Positions 17,385 to 40,746 of a stretch of 64,000 bases of DNA are shown here, in pieces. This DNA is from Cohnella thermotolerans DSM 17683. GTDB lineage: Bacteria > Bacillota > Bacilli > Paenibacillales > Paenibacillaceae. Made by a program: the position numbers and the translations under genes. The notes under the pieces are model-generated. The model had not been told where the DNA came from. It did not search any database and saw only the letters and a program-made list of their open reading frames with translations. Where the stretch lies: NCBI RefSeq assembly GCF_000429825.1, contig NZ_KE386955.1:62001-126000 (forward strand), written 5' to 3'. How positions within the stretch are numbered: the first letter of the stretch is position 1; every line of letters begins with the position of its first letter.

Positions 17385-18577
17385 TTCGCGTCCCCTCCCA
17401 CATAAGGCATAATCGCTTCGACGTCCTTGTCGCCGCGGCCGGACAAGCTGACGACGACGATGGCGTCCTTCGGCAGCGTCGGCGCCAGCTTGATCGTCTG
17501 GGCGATGGCGTGCGACGACTCGAGCGCGGGGATGATGCCTTCCTGCCGGGACAGCAGCTGCAGCGCTTCAAGCGCTTCGGCGTCGGTAATCGGCACGTAC
17601 TCGGCCCGCTTCGTATCTTTGAGGTAGGCATGCTCCGGACCGATGCCGGGGTAGTCGAGGCCCGCCGAGATGGAATGGGCTTCCTGCACTTGCCCGCCTT
17701 CGTCCTGCAGCACGTAGCTCATCGAGCCTTGGAACACGCCGGGGCGGCCCTTCGTCATCGTCGCCGCGTGCTTGTCGGTGTCGACCCCGCGTCCGGCGGC
17801 TTCAACGCCGATGAGACGGACGGACGCGTCGCCGACGAAGTCGTGGAAGATGCCCATCGCGTTGCTGCCTCCGCCGACGGCGGCCACGATCGCGTCCGGC
17901 AGGCGCCCTTCCTGCTCCAGAATCTGCTCCTTCGTTTCCACGCCGATAATCCGCTGGAAATCGCGAACCATCATCGGATAAGGATGCGGCCCGGTGACGG
18001 AGCCGAGAATGTAATACGTGTCGTCCACATGGCTGACCCAGTAGCGCAGCGTCTCGTTGCAGGCGTCCTTCAACGTCCTCGTTCCGGAAGTGACGGGAAC
18101 GACTTCGGTACCGAGCAGATTCATCCGGAACACGTTCAGCTTCTGGCGCTTCGTGTCTTCCTCGCCCATGAACACCTTGCACTCCATGCCGAGCAGCGCC
18201 GCCACCGTCGCGGTGGCCACGCCGTGCTGGCCGGCTCCGGTCTCCGCGATCACTTTCTTTTTGCCCATCCGCTTCGCCAGCAGCGCTTGTCCGAGCGCGT
18301 TGTTGATCTTGTGCGAGCCGGTATGGTTCAAATCCTCGCGCTTCAAATAAATTTTGGCGCCGCCGAGATGCTTCGTCAGCCTTTCCGCGTAATAAAGCGG
18401 CGAAGGCCGTCCCGCATATTGTTTAAGCAAATAGCGGAGCTCCGCCACAAAATCGGGATCGTCCTTGTATCGGTTATACGCTTCTTCGAGCTCGATCAGC
18501 GCGTTCATGAGCGTCTCCGGCACGTACCGGCCGCCGAACGGCCCGAAGCGTCCGTAAGTATCAGGTACCTGGTTCAT
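17381..18577 (-). CDS. trpB: Tryptophan synthase beta chain
   Basis: A 398-residue PLP enzyme that condenses indole with serine. The PLP-lysine motif [20 protein letters not shown] is at about 96-115. The phosphate loop GGGSNAMG and the C-terminal SGRGDKDV are intact, as is the [11 protein letters not shown] channel region. Length is typical of the TrpB1 class that works with TrpA. It is coupled to trpF upstream and trpA downstream by ATGA overlaps. Confidence 0.97.
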
Positions 18578-19275
18578 ATCGATTGCTTCACCCTTTCCGC
18601 GAAAGCGGCGATTTTGGCGTTGTCTTTGACGCCTTCGGTCTCCACGCCGCTGGAGATGTCCACGCCGTCCGGCGCGTACCGCGCGAGAAGCTCCCCTACG
18701 TTGTCGGGGCTAAGGCCTCCCGCGACGAACAGCTTCAGCCCCAGCTTGCGGGCTTCTTCCTGATAATCCGGGATCAGATCCCAGCGGAACGTCTTGCCCG
18801 TGCCTCCGCCGGCGGTGTCGATCAGCACGGCGGATACCGCGCCGCGATAGGCTTGAAGCCGGGCCGCGCCGGCTTCTTCTTCCGCGGATGGCGACGCTTC
18901 GTCCGCCTCGCTCCCTTCGGCGGGCAAGGCGCGCCATATTTCGACGCCGAAGCGCGCCGCCGCTTCGCGGCAAAACGCGGGCGTCTCCCGCCCGTGCAGC
19001 TGCACGACGTCGAGCCGGACCGTGCGAAGCGTGTCCGCGAGCTCTTCCATCGTCGGATCGACGAACACGCCGACCGCCCGCGGAGGCCGCCCTCCGGCCA
19101 TCGTCGTCCGCGACGCCGTCTCCAGCAGCGCCGCCGCACGGGACGGCGTTACCTGGCGCTTGCTCTTCGCGAACACGAAGCCGACGTAGTCGACCGGCAA
19201 CCCGTTCATGCCTTCCAGCGTGCGCTCCTCGCGGATGCCGCATATTTTGACCAGCGGACGCGTCGAATCCCTCAT
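18574..19275 (-). CDS. trpF: Phosphoribosylanthranilate isomerase
   Basis: A 233-residue TIM-barrel isomerase of tryptophan synthesis. The catalytic Cys is in [14 protein letters not shown] and the general acid Asp in [34 protein letters not shown] and the C-terminal phosphate site [15 protein letters not shown] are all present. An Ala/Glu-rich insertion ([22 protein letters not shown]) makes it slightly longer than the usual 205-215 residues. Four-base overlaps join it to trpC and trpB. Confidence 0.95.
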
Positions 19276-20084
19276 CGCCGCGAGATTCCCTTCGCCGCCG
19301 GACCGAGCAAGGCGTCGACCGCCTCGCCGACGTCGCGCTGCCGCATAAAATGCTCGCCGACGAGCACCGCCTGCGCGCCCGCCCGGCGCACGAACGCGAT
19401 GTCGTCCGGCGTGGAGATGGCGCTCTCGCTCACCGCCGTCACGCCTTGCGGGAGCAGCCCGATCAGCTGCTCGGTGACGTTCAGGTCGGTGACGAACGTA
19501 TGCAAGTCGCGGTTGTTGACGCCGATCAGCGTCGCTTTGCCGATGTCCAGCACCGTCTCCAGCTCGGCGCGGTTATGCACCTCGACGAGCACATCCAATC
19601 CGAGGGAGCGCGCGAGATCGTGGAAGGAGCTCAGCTGCTCCTTCGTCAAGATGGCGGCGATGAGCAGCACCGCGTCCGCGCCGATCAGGCGAGCCTCGTA
19701 AATTTGGCGCTCGTCGATCGTGAAATCTTTGCGCAGCAGCGGGACGTTCGTCTCCGCCCGCACCCGGGTCAAATACTCGTTGCTGCCTTGAAAATATTCC
19801 ACATCCGTCAGCACGGAGATGCAGTCCGTTCCCGCGGCCTCGTATGCCTTCGCCAGCGCGACCGGCTCGAAGTCCGGCCGGATGAGCCCTTTGGACGGGC
19901 TCGCCTTCTTCACTTCCGCGATCAGGCCGACCGGCCGCTTGCGCCGCCCTTCCCGCAGCGCCGACTCGAAGCCGAGACACGCGGGCATGGACGCGATCGT
20001 CCGCTCCGCTTCCGCGATTGTGAGCCGATCCTTCAGACGCTCCGCCTCTTGCCGCTTCGTGGCGACTATCCGATCAAGAAACAT
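19272..20084 (-). CDS. trpC: Indole-3-glycerol phosphate synthase
   Basis: A 270-residue TIM-barrel lyase closing the indole ring from carboxyphenylamino-deoxyribulose phosphate. Seen are the catalytic Lys in LIAEVKKASPSKGLIR, the second Lys in LLRKDFTIDERQIYEARLIGADA, VEVHNRAEL, GVNNRDLHTF and the C-terminal SESAISTPDDI and LVGEHFMRQ. Length is normal. It overlaps trpD by 11 bases and trpF by four. Confidence 0.96.
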   Translation of the reverse strand: MFLDRIVATKRQEAERLKDRLTIAEAERTIASMPACLGFESALREGRRKRPVGLIAEVKKASPSKGLIRPDFEPVALAKAYEAAGTDCISVLTDVEYFQGSNEYLTRVRAETNVPLLRKDFTIDERQIYEARLIGADAVLLIAAILTKEQLSSFHDLARSLGLDVLVEVHNRAELETVLDIGKATLIGVNNRDLHTFVTDLNVTEQLIGLLPQGVTAVSESAISTPDDIAFVRRAGAQAVLVGEHFMRQRDVGEAVDALLGPAAKGISRR

Positions 20085-21126
20085 AGGTGGTCACTTCTCC
20101 TGTCGTCGCAATCCATTGCTGTAACTTGTCCAGAGCGGCGCCCGAATCGATCGTCCGCGCCGCCAGTTCGACTCCGCTTGCCAGCGTCTCCGCCCGGCCC
20201 GCCACGTAAAGGCAGGCGCCCGCGTTCGCCAGCACGACTTCGCGGTAAGCGCTGCGCTCCCCGCCCAGCACCCGGCGGATGATCGCCGCGTTCTCGGCGG
20301 CGTCGCCTCCCTGCACCTCGCCGAGCGGCACGGTCTTCAACCCGAGCTGCTCCGGCGTAATATCGTAAGTCGTCACTTCGCCGTCCTTCAGTTCGGAGAT
20401 TCGCGTCGGCGCGGAGATGCTGATCTCGTCCAGCCCGTCGTGGCTGCCGACGACCATCGCGCGCTTCAGGCCGAGCCGTCCGAGCACCTTCGCGACCGTC
20501 TCGGTTTTCGTCCGGTCGTACAGCCCCATCAGCTGACGATCGGCGTTCGCGGGATTGGCGAGCGGCCCGAGCATGTTGAAGATCGTCCGAACGCCCAGCT
20601 CCCGGCGCGGCACGGCCGCGTGCTTCAGCGCGGGATGGTAGAGCTGCGCGAACATGAAGCAGATGCCGGTCCGCGCCAGACAATCGGCCGCTTGCTCCGC
20701 CGTGAGCGAGATGTTGACGCCGAGCGCCTCCAGCACGTCCGCGCTGCCGGCTTTGCCCGACATGGCGCGGTTGCCGTGCTTGGCGACGCGGGCTCCGGCC
20801 GCAGCCGCGATGATCGCCGAGGAAGTCGAGATGTTGAATTTGTGAATGCCGGAGCCTCCGGTGCCGCAGGTGTCCAACAGGTCTTCGTTCTCCGTGCGGA
20901 CGCGATCCGAGAACGAGCGCATCGCTTCGGCGAAGCCGGTAATCTCGTCCACCGTCTCCCCCTTCATCCGCAGAGCGACGACGACTCCCGCGATCTGCGA
21001 CGGGGTCGCTTCGCCGCGCATAATCAGGCTCATAACCGCCTTCGCTTCCTCCAGCGTCAAATCGCCGCCGCTCGTCAGCCTGGCGAGCGCCTGCGGCATA
21101 CTCATCATTTGCTCATCTCCGCTCAT
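20074..21126 (-). CDS. trpD: Anthranilate phosphoribosyltransferase
   Basis: A 350-residue transferase joining PRPP and anthranilate. The PRPP motif DTCGTGGSGIHKFNIST is at about 82-98, followed by the KHGNRAMSGKAGSADVLEALG anthranilate-binding region and HPALKHAAVPRRELGVRTIFN. The start has GGAGGAG five bases upstream and lies 35 bases after trpE. No TrpG amidotransferase is fused or encoded here; as in B. subtilis, the shared PabA/TrpG subunit is expected elsewhere. Confidence 0.96.
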   Translation of the reverse strand: MSGDEQMMSMPQALARLTSGGDLTLEEAKAVMSLIMRGEATPSQIAGVVVALRMKGETVDEITGFAEAMRSFSDRVRTENEDLLDTCGTGGSGIHKFNISTSSAIIAAAAGARVAKHGNRAMSGKAGSADVLEALGVNISLTAEQAADCLARTGICFMFAQLYHPALKHAAVPRRELGVRTIFNMLGPLANPANADRQLMGLYDRTKTETVAKVLGRLGLKRAMVVGSHDGLDEISISAPTRISELKDGEVTTYDITPEQLGLKTVPLGEVQGGDAAENAAIIRRVLGGERSAYREVVLANAGACLYVAGRAETLASGVELAARTIDSGAALDKLQQWIATTGEVTTYVS

Positions 21127-21161: not shown

Positions 21162-22724
21162 TCAGGCGTAATCCAGATTCGTCCGCCGTTCGCCGGCCGC
21201 GGCCAGCTTATCCCGCTTCGGGAACGCCGCCTCCGCGGCGCGAATCGCCTTCAGCATGCCTTTGGCTTTGTTGACCGTCTCCTCGTATTCCTTCTCGGGC
21301 ACCGAATCCCAGACGATTCCCGCGCCCGCTTGCACATAAGCCTTGCCGTTCTTGAAAATGATCGTGCGGATCGTAATGCAGGTGTCGAGGTTGCCCGAGA
21401 AGCCGAGATAGCCGATCGCGCCGGCGTACGCGCCGCGGGCTTCGCTCTCCAGCTCGGCGATAATCTCCATCGCCCGCAGCTTCGGCGCTCCCGATACCGT
21501 TCCCGCCGGCAGGCAGGAGAGGAAGGCGTCGAAGAAATCTTTGTCCTGCCGCAGCTTGCCGGTCACGTTGGACACGATGTGCATGACGTGGGAATAGCGC
21601 TCGATCTCCATGTAGGAATCGCACTTGACCGTGCCGTAGTCGGATACTCTTCCGAGGTCGTTGCGTCCCAAATCGACGAGCATAACGTGCTCGGCCCGCT
21701 CTTTCTCGTCGGCCAGCAGTTCCCGTTCGAGCGCCTTATCCTCTTCCGGCGTCTTGCCGCGCGGCCGCGTTCCGGCGATCGGGCGCGTCTCCACGCGGTC
21801 GCCGTCGACCTTGACGAGCAGCTCCGGCGACGTGCCGACGATCACTTCTTCGTCCAGCTTCAACATGTACATGTACGGCGACGGGTTCATCGTTCGAAGC
21901 ACCCGGTACACGAGCAGCGGATCGACCTCCGTCTCGATGTGGAACCGCTGCGAGAGCACGACCTGGAAAATGTCGCCCGCCCGGATATATTCCTTCGCCC
22001 GCTCCACGTTGCGGATGAACTGCTCCTTGGTCAGGTTGGAGCGCACGTCTCCGAGATCCGGATCGGCCGGAGGCGCGCCGGCCGCCGATGCCGCCGGAGC
22101 CGCCGGACTTTGCAGGCGCCGAATCGTCTCCTCGATGCCGAGGCAGGCATCCTGGTACGCGATGCGGATGTCCGCTTCGGAGGCGCCGTCCTTGACGTGC
22201 ACGTTGCCGATGACGAGCACCTGCTGCTTCAGATGGTCGAACACGACGACCCGGTCGCAGAACAGGAAGTGCATGTCGTCCATCACCAGATCGTCGACAG
22301 GGTGAGACGGCAGCTTCCGTTCATAATATTGCAGCAGATCGTAGCCGAAAAATCCGATCGCTCCTCCCGTAAACGGAGGCAGCTCCGGCAGCGCGGGGCT
22401 GCGATAGCTGCGCAGCCGCTCCCGCAGCAGCTTCAGCGGATCGTCCGTGAAGAACGATTGCGTCCTTTTCCCTTCCGTCAGCGTCGCCTTGTTCTTCTTC
22501 AGCCTGAGGACGAGGAAAGGATCGGTGCCGATGAACGAATATCTCGCCCACTTGATGCCGCCCTCCACGCTTTCCAGCAAGAACGCCCGGCCTTCCCGGC
22601 CCAGCTGCTGAAACACCCGGATCGGCGTTTCCGTATCGGCCATCAGCCGGCGGACGACGGGAATGACGTTGTACCTCTCCGCCAGACGGATCACATTCTG
22701 AAGCTCCTGCTCGCGCTGTTCCAT
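21162..22724 (-). CDS. trpE: Anthranilate synthase component I
   Basis: A 520-residue chorismate-utilising enzyme making anthranilate with the glutaminase subunit. The N-terminal regulatory part has the tryptophan-site LLESVEGGIKWARYSFIG. The catalytic domain has FQVVLSQRF, PIAGTRPRGKTPEEDKALE, LVDLGRNDLGRVS and CLPAGTVSGAPKLRAMEII. It is first in the trpEDCFBA operon. The start at 22724 follows an AAGGA-type site; an open frame continues to 22781 but through leader RNA. Expression is controlled by the TRAP-type leader at 22725-23095. Confidence 0.96.
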   Translation of the reverse strand: MEQREQELQNVIRLAERYNVIPVVRRLMADTETPIRVFQQLGREGRAFLLESVEGGIKWARYSFIGTDPFLVLRLKKNKATLTEGKRTQSFFTDDPLKLLRERLRSYRSPALPELPPFTGGAIGFFGYDLLQYYERKLPSHPVDDLVMDDMHFLFCDRVVVFDHLKQQVLVIGNVHVKDGASEADIRIAYQDACLGIEETIRRLQSPAAPAASAAGAPPADPDLGDVRSNLTKEQFIRNVERAKEYIRAGDIFQVVLSQRFHIETEVDPLLVYRVLRTMNPSPYMYMLKLDEEVIVGTSPELLVKVDGDRVETRPIAGTRPRGKTPEEDKALERELLADEKERAEHVMLVDLGRNDLGRVSDYGTVKCDSYMEIERYSHVMHIVSNVTGKLRQDKDFFDAFLSCLPAGTVSGAPKLRAMEIIAELESEARGAYAGAIGYLGFSGNLDTCITIRTIIFKNGKAYVQAGAGIVWDSVPEKEYEETVNKAKGMLKAIRAAEAAFPKRDKLAAAGERRTNLDYA

Positions 22725-22792
22725 GTTCCTTCTCTCTCCTCTCCAAGCCGCACCGGAATGCGGCTCGCCAATGCGTTGCACAATCGGAACAA

Positions 22793-22847
22793 TTCCCCCA
22801 AAAGTGAAGCCAAGCTTCGATGCCGATTCCGATTACTTTTGGGGGAA
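22793..22847 (-). promoter_or_regulatory. 13-bp hairpin between attenuator and trpE
   Basis: TTCCCCCAAAAGT (22793-22805) and ACTTTTGGGGGAA (22835-22847) are perfectly complementary with a 29-base loop. The C-rich arm nearer the promoter could instead pair with a GGGGG just upstream in the RNA (plus-strand CCCCC at 22848-22852), so two states are possible. It has no U-tract, so it is more likely involved in translation or mRNA stability. Confidence 0.55.
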
Positions 22848-22854
22848 CCCCCGG

Positions 22855-22890
22855 TACAACAAAAAAGCATCCCTGCAGCAGCAGAGATGC
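22855..22890 (-). terminator. trp attenuator terminator
   Basis: On the minus strand GCATCTCTGC, loop TGCT, GCAGGGATGC and TTTTTTGTTG. Bases 22880-22887 (TCTCTGCT in the RNA) are complementary to AGCAGAGA inside the TRAP site (23031-23038), which gives the mutually exclusive antiterminator. Confidence 0.88.
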
Positions 22891-23016
22891 GTTCGTTAGA
22901 CAAAGGTTATTTGACCGGTCCGTCCGACAATCCGCAACCGCAAGGCCGCGCCCGTACGGGCCGTTCCGCCGCCGACTCCCTCGTCCTGAACGCATGCGTT
23001 CCCCGAGGTTCGGCAC

Positions 23017-23044
23017 CTCCGCTCTTCTCGTCTCTGCTCAGCTC
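23017..23044 (-). promoter_or_regulatory. TRAP-binding site: six GAG triplets
   Basis: Minus-strand GAG triplets occupy plus-strand 23042, 23037, 23032, 23027, 23022 and 23017 (each CTC on the plus strand), every one separated by exactly two bases. A seventh GAG at 23067 is in the same five-base register, with degenerate triplets between. B. subtilis trp leader has eleven (G/U)AG triplets, so this is a shorter site. Confidence 0.82.
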
Positions 23045-23101
23045 GCCCGCGCGTAAGTCGTCGTCCCTCCGGCCGACGGTTCCGCGCCAAGCGCTAATGC
23101 C

Positions 23102-23130
23102 ACTATAGCATTTGGAAGGTCAGACGTCAA
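23102..23130 (-). promoter_or_regulatory. Sigma-A promoter of the trp operon
   Basis: On the minus strand TTGACG (23125-23130), 17-base spacer, TATAGT (23102-23107). The -35 overlaps the aroH stop codon, so trp has its own start inside the larger aromatic supraoperon. Confidence 0.85.
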
Positions 23131-23498
23131 CGGGCCGCCGACAAATCCGGACGCAGCGCTTCGGCTCCGCCCAGGTACACGTGCCGCATGTCCGACTGCT
23201 TCAAATCCGTGTTCACCAGCACCATGAACCGGATGCACCGCTCCAGGCTTCCCTTGACGGGAATTTCCACCGAACACATGAGCGGCACGAATTCCCAGCC
23301 TTCCAGCTCCCGGATCGACTTCGCCGGGAACGCCGCGTCGATGTCCTGAGTGACGGTTATAAAAACGCAGCAGATGTCCTCCGGCGATACGCCGTTCACC
23401 TCGACGATCTCGTTCATGAGCTTAACCGACGCGTCCAAAATGAGCTGTCTCTCGTTGGCGTCAACCGTGATGGCGCCGCGTATTCCCCTAACGCTCAT
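23127..23498 (-). CDS. aroH: Chorismate mutase, AroH type
   Basis: A 123-residue monofunctional chorismate mutase of the trimeric AroH (pseudo-alpha/beta barrel) class, making prephenate for Phe and Tyr. Family features include MSVRGIRGAITVDANE, the active-site residues in RHVYLGGAEALRPDL and IEIPVKGSLERCIRF-like text (SVEIPVKGSLERCIRFMVLV). The start at 23498 overlaps the aroB stop (ATGA), with GAGGAGG ten bases upstream. Its stop codon lies within the -35 of the trp promoter. Confidence 0.95.
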   Translation of the reverse strand: MSVRGIRGAITVDANERQLILDASVKLMNEIVEVNGVSPEDICCVFITVTQDIDAAFPAKSIRELEGWEFVPLMCSVEIPVKGSLERCIRFMVLVNTDLKQSDMRHVYLGGAEALRPDLSAAR

Positions 23499-33292: not shown

Positions 33293-33523
33293 TCAGGCAT
33301 CGGTCTCGACGATCCCGTACTTGGTCATGACCGTCGCCTTCCCCCGGATCTTGATCGCGGACGTATGATCCGTAAATTGCGCGATCAGCACCTCGCCCCG
33401 GTCCAGCTTCTCCGTATGATGAAACCGCGTATCTTGCCCGCGGGTAAGTCCGATTACGTTCACTCCGTTGTCCTTCGCCTTCACGACGATGTACTCCCCG
33501 CTATTCGCCGGCATCGACTCCAT
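33293..33523 (-). CDS. mtrB: Trp RNA-binding attenuation protein (TRAP)
   Basis: A 76-residue protein closely matching TRAP. The core reads [17 protein letters not shown], then [20 protein letters not shown] and [11 protein letters not shown]. The three RNA-contact residues of B. subtilis TRAP (Lys37, Lys56, Arg58) align with Lys39, Lys58 and Arg60, and the tryptophan-pocket Thr residues of TRGxDT and FTxHTS are kept. It assembles into a ring that, with tryptophan, binds GAG/UAG repeats; the site at 23017-23044 is its likely target. The start is 33523 (AGGAGG eleven bases upstream); MPANSG at 33514 is an alternative. Its usual partner mtrA/folE is not adjacent. Confidence 0.93.
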
Positions 33524-38636: not shown

Positions 38637-38840
38637 GACAACGAACGCCTTGGGAGGAGGTGACGCTGGAGGCGGGGTAGACGAAAGCGGGGGCGAAAGC
38701 GCAGACCAAGGCCAAGGTTCAAAAAGGCACAGGCCGAAGCAAAAACGCCAAGCCGTCCATGGACGGCAGCGGAGTCCATTCAGAAACGCGGAGCGTATTC
38801 TTCGTAGAGTAAAGGGCTGGGCTTCCAGCCCCTCCTCATC

Positions 38841-38872
38841 AAACCGGACATGAGGTTTTCCCTCATCCGGCT
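38841..38872 (-). ncRNA. Group II intron domain V
   Basis: On the minus strand AGCCGGATGAGG, GAAA tetraloop region, CCTCATGTCCGGTTT. The AGC catalytic triad and the two-base bulge expected of domain V are visible. Confidence 0.8.
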
Positions 38873-38911
38873 TTCCGATGTTCTTCTTCCTTCGGCATTA
38901 CGATACTTTCC

Positions 38912-40216: not shown

Positions 40217-40746
40217 GGACTCTTACCTCCTCTGGCACATGAACAAAGTGGGGTATTGGCTTTCGCCGCCCTTCCCTCCATGAGGTTTTGTTGTCCTCAC
40301 TTCTCAGGTAATATGGCCCCCTCCGACTCCCTTCCTGCAGCTTCCCACTTCACCTTTCGGGCTTATAAGGTCACTCTTTACGGCGTCTGCCGTGCAGGGG
40401 AGGGTCTCCCTAGTTCCAGACACAACTTTCTCAGCATGCCGATCCCTTTACACCGGAGAGTTCTTCCGCGCTGCGTTTCCAAGGTCTTGACGCGTTCCAT
40501 GGCCTTCACCCATATCCCCGGGGCTCGGCTCTCTCTTGTCCCTTTCGGTTCTTTTTGACGATGCGGCAGGATTCACTTCATGTTACGGCCTGCTGATTTG
40601 CTCGCACTCCCGCAGGAGTTACTTTGTCACGGGGCTTCAGCCTTAGGATCTCTCCACCAGCTGCCCGTCAGCTACGAGGCGACTTGGCTCTTACCTCGAC
40701 CGGACTTGCACCGGCTAGTTGTGCCTAGCTTGGCTAGGCGCGCGGG

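Follow-up and report, generated by a model that had tools for sequence, protein, structure and literature searches.

The protein TRAP is a classic example of how a repeated RNA code is read, in which eleven triplets are set against an eleven-fold ring. On the minus strand of the 64,000-nucleotide stretch of DNA analysed here (the window), which comes from a soil-dwelling Cohnella, the leader of the trp operon carries six triplets in one short array, and this raises the question of how TRAP could control an operon from about half of the textbook repeats. Our analysis points to a likely answer, namely a tryptophan-dependent TRAP attenuator in a compact Cohnella form, where a conserved 5' stem-loop and a switch between alternative RNA pairings would act together with the short array.

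All features of the leader lie on the minus strand, within what we take to be a supraoperon comprising hup, mtrB, a hep/men region, ndk, cheR, aroC, aroB, aroH, trpE, trpD, trpC and trpF. These names were recognised from translations, except for mtrB and trpE; the best named match of AroB is Cohnella lubricantis at 88%. The leader is flanked upstream by aroH (23127-23498) and downstream by trpE (21162-22724; TIGR00564, 591.6 bits), the first gene of the operon, with trpD, trpC and trpF following at 18574-21126; aroH and the three later trp genes were named by recognition, and not by family search. The TRAP gene mtrB (33296-33523) lies 10.8 kb upstream of the leader. Two Rfam matches to group II introns, perhaps parts of one intron, fall on the same strand at 38804-38875 and 40578-40717.

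A promoter-like site, TTGACG-17-TATAGT (23102-23130, minus strand), overlaps the end of aroH with its -35 element and has an extended -10 element (TG before the -10). The pattern scan found one such site against a shuffle mean of 0.3, and similar sites align in other Cohnella leaders. Transcription from this site would place the RNA start just upstream of the 5' stem-loop, which 5-7 (G/U)AG triplets directly follow. The distance between aroH and trpE is 0.5-2.8 kb in 9 of 16 named Cohnella (L005, L007-L011, L013, L068 and L076) and otherwise about 0.3-0.4 kb; in the long-spacer loci the stem-loop, array and terminator still adjoin trpE.

T-box and ribosome-mediated attenuation both control trp genes elsewhere, and a leader of either kind would offer an alternative to TRAP. 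The Rfam search matched neither a TRAP leader nor a T-box, however, where the only match of the leader at E up to 5 was a sub-threshold sRNA, and no T-box secondary structure was found by Rfam in the leader or the window. A leader peptide fares no better: none of the ORFs of at least 5 codons that start in the leader upstream of the terminator reaches a Trp codon ahead of that hairpin. We consider a T-box or leader-peptide attenuator highly improbable and turn to the evidence for TRAP.

Inspection of the leader reveals exactly six GAG triplets with 2-nt spacers (GAG-CU-GAG-CA-GAG-AC-GAG-AA-GAG-CG-GAG; 23017-23044, minus strand), as the preliminary description had read from the sequence. The array holds an exact 5-nt pitch, has no in-register NAG on either side and is conserved. 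At least five KAG triplets at this pitch occur at only two places in the 5.05-Mb genome, the trp leader and an eight-triplet array before a methyltransferase gene, which argues that the trp array is not a product of chance. GAG runs of four triplets are also present on contigs C25 and C28. Runs of TAGGA, GAGAA and GAGTA seen in other genomes were set aside as simple repeats.

The short site extends across the genus. Counted at exact 5-nt pitch, 38 distinct leaders (those of the window's genus plus L164 from another genus, identical leaders being counted once) carry five triplets in 9 cases, six in 21 and seven in 8, which bears out the earlier proposal that the site is shorter than the eleven triplets of B. 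subtilis. TRAP sites are described as carrying 9-11 repeats, as in B. subtilis, in PMC4347634, and PMC4027176 reports stable TRAP binding to RNAs with 7 or more triplets. The Cohnella sites thus fall below the first range and lie at or below the second level. We treat the low number as a variant because triplet number differs between species, reaching 19 NAG triplets in Bacillus halodurans (PMC3184956). The broader claim of the preliminary description, that TRAP attenuates the trp operon through a short site of six triplets, is likewise supported: the genome contains mtrB, trpE follows the leader, and array and terminator are both conserved.

The RNA contacts of the protein itself are intact. 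TRAP from the window retains E38, K39, K58 and R60, which correspond to Glu36, Lys37, Lys56 and Arg58 of B. subtilis, the RNA-contact residues named in PMC4027176. Comparison of 17 Cohnella with 54 other TRAP sequences at nine key positions, five of them of our own choosing, revealed no difference that would explain the short site. Lys15 and Thr72, assuming the same numbering, are present in 17/17 Cohnella and 48/54 other sequences, and PMC3184956 links these residues with 12-subunit TRAP rings such as that of B. halodurans. By analogy, the Cohnella ring probably has 12 subunits, in which case six triplets would cover half of it; Cohnella nonetheless differs from B. halodurans in carrying 5-7 triplets against 19. 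TRAP (PF02081) occurs in 210 of 299 sampled genomes of the class. In contrast to B. subtilis, Anti-TRAP (PF15777) exceeded the cut-off in none of the 37 genomes of the genus, where one sub-threshold match (L201) was seen; the model is not very specific, since it matched the B. subtilis control and also three unrelated controls.

What accompanies the short array is a covarying stem-loop that abuts it (23043-23094, minus strand), which the preliminary description had missed and which is identified by covariation, by a covariance model restricted to this element (R1) and by folding. An outer helix (about 23092-23089 with 23048-23045) reaches the array and is followed by a lower stem (23087-23083 with 23053-23049), an internal loop of GAAC (23082-23079) opposite ACUUA (23058-23054), and an upper stem closed by an NNAG tetraloop, here GGAG (23070-23067). 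Across 17 species in a plain, unfitted alignment, changes on both sides are seen in 7 of 13 pairs; in an alignment of 34 distinct sequences fitted to the model, the count is 9 of 13, in 28 cells. None of 500 shuffles reached as high a value in either alignment, and the signal collapses when the partner is slid by 1-3 columns. The outer helix was left out of the pair count because its register differs between two subclades, and one upper-stem position is mismatched in 28 of the 34 sequences, with U-A, A-U or G-U in the remainder. By energy the signal is modest, where the stem-loop of the window folds with a z of -2.36 (5/200 shuffles as good) and the 119-nt stretch of stem-loop plus array is no more stable than its shuffles (z -0.28).

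The unpaired positions are conserved along with the helices. All 38 leaders share, without variation, GAA of the internal loop, AG of the NNAG tetraloop and CUUACG. R1 finds the stem-loop in 37/37 genomes of the genus and, outside it, in a single genome (G306, E 1e-5), which belongs to another genus. Among the 64 non-Cohnella named loci it returned two matches only (E 0.85 and 5), and six weak matches outside trp (L165-L170) were rejected as chance because no array stands behind them.

The B. subtilis trp leader also begins with a 5' stem-loop, with a GAA internal loop and an NNAG loop, in which G7-A8-A9 and A19-G20 contact TRAP. The same hairpin, letter for letter, precedes the array in two genomes of the class (L191 and L192), and related hairpins precede the arrays of L189, with the loop GGAG, and L187, with GAA and then a stem with the loop ACAG. 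In 79 leaders with an array from outside Cohnella, the 75 nt preceding the array were scanned for hairpins with a tetraloop and at least 5 pairs; 25 leaders have one, and the loop is NNAG in 10 of these 25, against a mean of 1.35 and a maximum of 6 in 300 shuffles. These ten come from a stem scan alone, several are close relatives, and two (L021 and L047) apparently fall within aroH, ahead of the promoter. Together, GAA and NNAG in the Bacillus-type stem-loops and the tetraloop excess suggest that GAA-stem-NNAG is a recurring design of TRAP leaders that looks to have become fixed in Cohnella, where the stem-loop is larger than that of B. subtilis, near-invariant and provided with a CUUA 3' loop.

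Triplet number and stem-loop appear to be related across leaders. The named set holds 79 leaders, that is to say the 78 obtained from 80 named loci (L024 and L026 lacked a trpE match) plus that of the window, with 17 from Cohnella, window included, and 62 from elsewhere; a (G/U)AG chain scoring at least 3.8 is present in all 79. Fewer triplets occur where the Cohnella-type stem-loop is present, with a median of 6 against 9 in the 62 leaders that lack it (p = 4e-9), where the 9 rests on a gap-tolerant count that gives 5-8 for 37 sites of the window's genus, and where 10 of the 62 have only 4-6 triplets. In the 39 of these 62 leaders in which the promoter pattern matched, triplet number falls as the space ahead of the array grows (rho = -0.58, n = 39). 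Because the leaders are related, these comparisons are confounded by ancestry.

The invariant GAA, AG and CUUA and the recurrence of GAA and NNAG in Bacillus-type 5' stem-loops lead us to infer that the stem-loop is a second TRAP site that would compensate for the missing triplets. By analogy with B. subtilis, TRAP would touch its GAA and AG. An unlikely alternative is that TRAP attenuates through the array alone, while the stem-loop serves RNA stability, another protein or pausing. Helices by themselves could stabilise the 5' end of the RNA, contact of TRAP with the stem-loop is drawn from comparison, and 5-7 triplets come near the seven at which PMC4027176 places stable binding. Stability, however, would not call for unpaired GAA, AG and CUUA to be invariant in 38/38 leaders, and GAA and NNAG also stand before the arrays of other Bacilli. 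Both observations favour the stem-loop as part of the TRAP target.

Downstream of the array lies an intrinsic terminator, GCAUCUCUGC-UGCU-GCAGGGAUGC followed by U6 (22861-22890, minus strand; stem 22890-22867, U run to 22861). The preliminary description had placed it about 130 bases from the array, and the distance is 126 nt; in the 38 leaders it ranges over 61-136 nt, a gap that differs from the arrangement in B. subtilis. The pattern scan alone is not significant (1 found against a shuffle mean of 1.0). The hairpin has a folding energy of -18.1 kcal/mol (z -4.95, 0/200 shuffles as good) and is conserved, and its arm GCAUCUCUGC is common to most Cohnella leaders. Between terminator and trpE, at about 22790-22850 on the minus strand, the CCCCCAAAAGT...ACTTTTGGGGG hairpin is a repeat of the genome, with nine matches at up to 1 mismatch, some of them 66-67 bases apart.

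A pairing that could prevent termination joins AGCAGAGA inside the array (23031-23038, minus strand) to UCUCUGCU (22880-22887, minus strand), which overlaps the 5' arm and loop of the terminator. The letters and coordinates of this 8-base complement, reported earlier, hold as given, but taken alone it is weak evidence, since 27% of 30 shuffled arms pair equally with the array of the window. Across the genus the signal is clearer. In transcripts ending before the 3' arm of the terminator, and with seven leaders whose terminators fell outside the search pattern added by hand, the probability that array and arm pair averages 0.74 against 0.45 for shuffled arms, and 35 of 38 leaders exceed the mean of their own control. 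The modelling therefore supports antiterminator pairing at the level of the genus.

For the window alone the proposed antiterminator is less secure. The terminator 5' arm can pair with the array in sequence, but the equilibrium model gives no switch: the terminator has a probability of 0.91 when the array is free and of 0.95 when it is bound, and so wins either way. In 27 of 38 leaders the terminator is at or above 0.88 with the array free. Six relatives behave differently in the same model, where masking the array raises the terminator from 0.03 to 0.97 (L007), from 0.03 to 1.00 (L008), from 0.00 to 1.00 (L076 and L161), from 0.13 to 1.00 (L068) and from 0.18 to 1.00 (L010). With values of 0.91 and 0.95, and with more than a quarter of the shuffled arms pairing equally, the antiterminator of the window's leader stays putative, plausible as a co-transcriptional structure.

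Such results leave some room for a doubtful but weightier alternative, in which the antiterminator is dispensable, TRAP on its site favours termination by itself or together with pausing factors, and the match of array and arm is a by-product of GAG facing CUC. PMC3913778 describes TRAP-mediated termination in B. subtilis that is independent of the attenuator hairpin, which would fit the missing switch in the equilibrium model of the window. The pairing of 35/38 leaders above shuffled arms and the near-full switch in six relatives speak against it, as does the terminator of the window, which looks strongly intrinsic, unlike the weak one described for B. subtilis in the same paper. We therefore retain a switch between antiterminator and terminator as the preferred reading.

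With tryptophan, TRAP would touch the stem-loop through the GAA internal loop and the NNAG tetraloop, and the short array would wrap about half of the TRAP ring. The bound array could then not pair with the 5' arm of the terminator, so the terminator would form and transcription would stop. Without tryptophan, the (C/U)AGAGA segment of the array would pair with UCUCUG and transcription would continue. This scheme resembles the attenuator of the B. subtilis trpEDCFBA operon in its mtrB gene, its tryptophan operon, its 2-nt-spaced (G/U)AG array and its downstream terminator with a putative overlapping antiterminator, and departs from it in using 5-7 triplets in place of 11.

The second array of the genome, likewise overlooked in the preliminary description, extends the question beyond trp. 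It has eight GAG triplets (contig C1 537674-537711; L082 1501-1538, minus strand) and stands just before the predicted start of a gene whose product gives weak methyltransferase matches only, in Pfam and NCBIfam, as a SAM-dependent methyltransferase. Of the 37 genomes of the genus, 26 have the gene (E up to 1e-40), and in all 26 orthologues (upstream regions L253-L277) an array scoring at least 5.3 lies near, and GAGAGGAG lies before, the predicted start. These arrays, in which a gap of about 6 nt often separates two parts, hold 6-11 triplets with a median of 8 and exceed the trp site in triplet number in 26/26 genomes; the stretches searched were about 320-330 nt against 75 nt after the trp stem-loop, and the best 75 nt still hold 6-11 triplets.

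Beyond the genus, 198 of 295 genomes of the family have a homologue (E up to 1e-25). We picked 36 by hand across genera rather than at random (L296-L331; 35 from other genera and one divergent paralogue of the window's genus), and in 34 of these 36 the array beats at least 99 of 100 shuffles, with a score of at least 3.8 in 31. The lower scores belong to L300, L309, L321, L325 and L326, where the last two also fail the shuffle test. Control regions upstream of 15 other genes at the named loci reach 3.8 in 4 of 1073 cases. The gene is thus a probable TRAP target across the sampled Paenibacillaceae. The protein matched no PDB sequence up to E = 1, and inspection of its neighbours by eye at nine loci offered no functional clue.

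B. subtilis trpG, yhaG and others are regulated by TRAP through sites that overlap the ribosome binding site. The methyltransferase arrays resemble these in lying on or beside the start region, and the mechanism outlined for such sites in PMC4347634 suggests that TRAP may repress translation of the methyltransferase. The gene differs from trpG and yhaG in that its product, a methyltransferase, is not among the known enzymes or transporters of tryptophan. A literature search, with subscription papers mostly outside its scope, returned no report of the methyltransferase as a TRAP target or of Cohnella TRAP leaders. The full combination, a bipartite target in which the stem-loop replaces about half of the array on a probable 12-subunit ring reading about six triplets, together with translational repression of the methyltransferase across Paenibacillaceae, is in our estimate evenly poised between right and wrong.

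We regard the leader as a real variant of the TRAP attenuator, a short array joined to a highly conserved stem-loop, accompanied by a probable new member of the regulon. Half of the repeats beside a near-invariant stem-loop amounts to a natural experiment on how the two share recognition by TRAP. The methyltransferase, a probable target, would add to what is a very small regulon and, if the target is real, would hint at a role of this enzyme in tryptophan metabolism, a clue to its function throughout the family.
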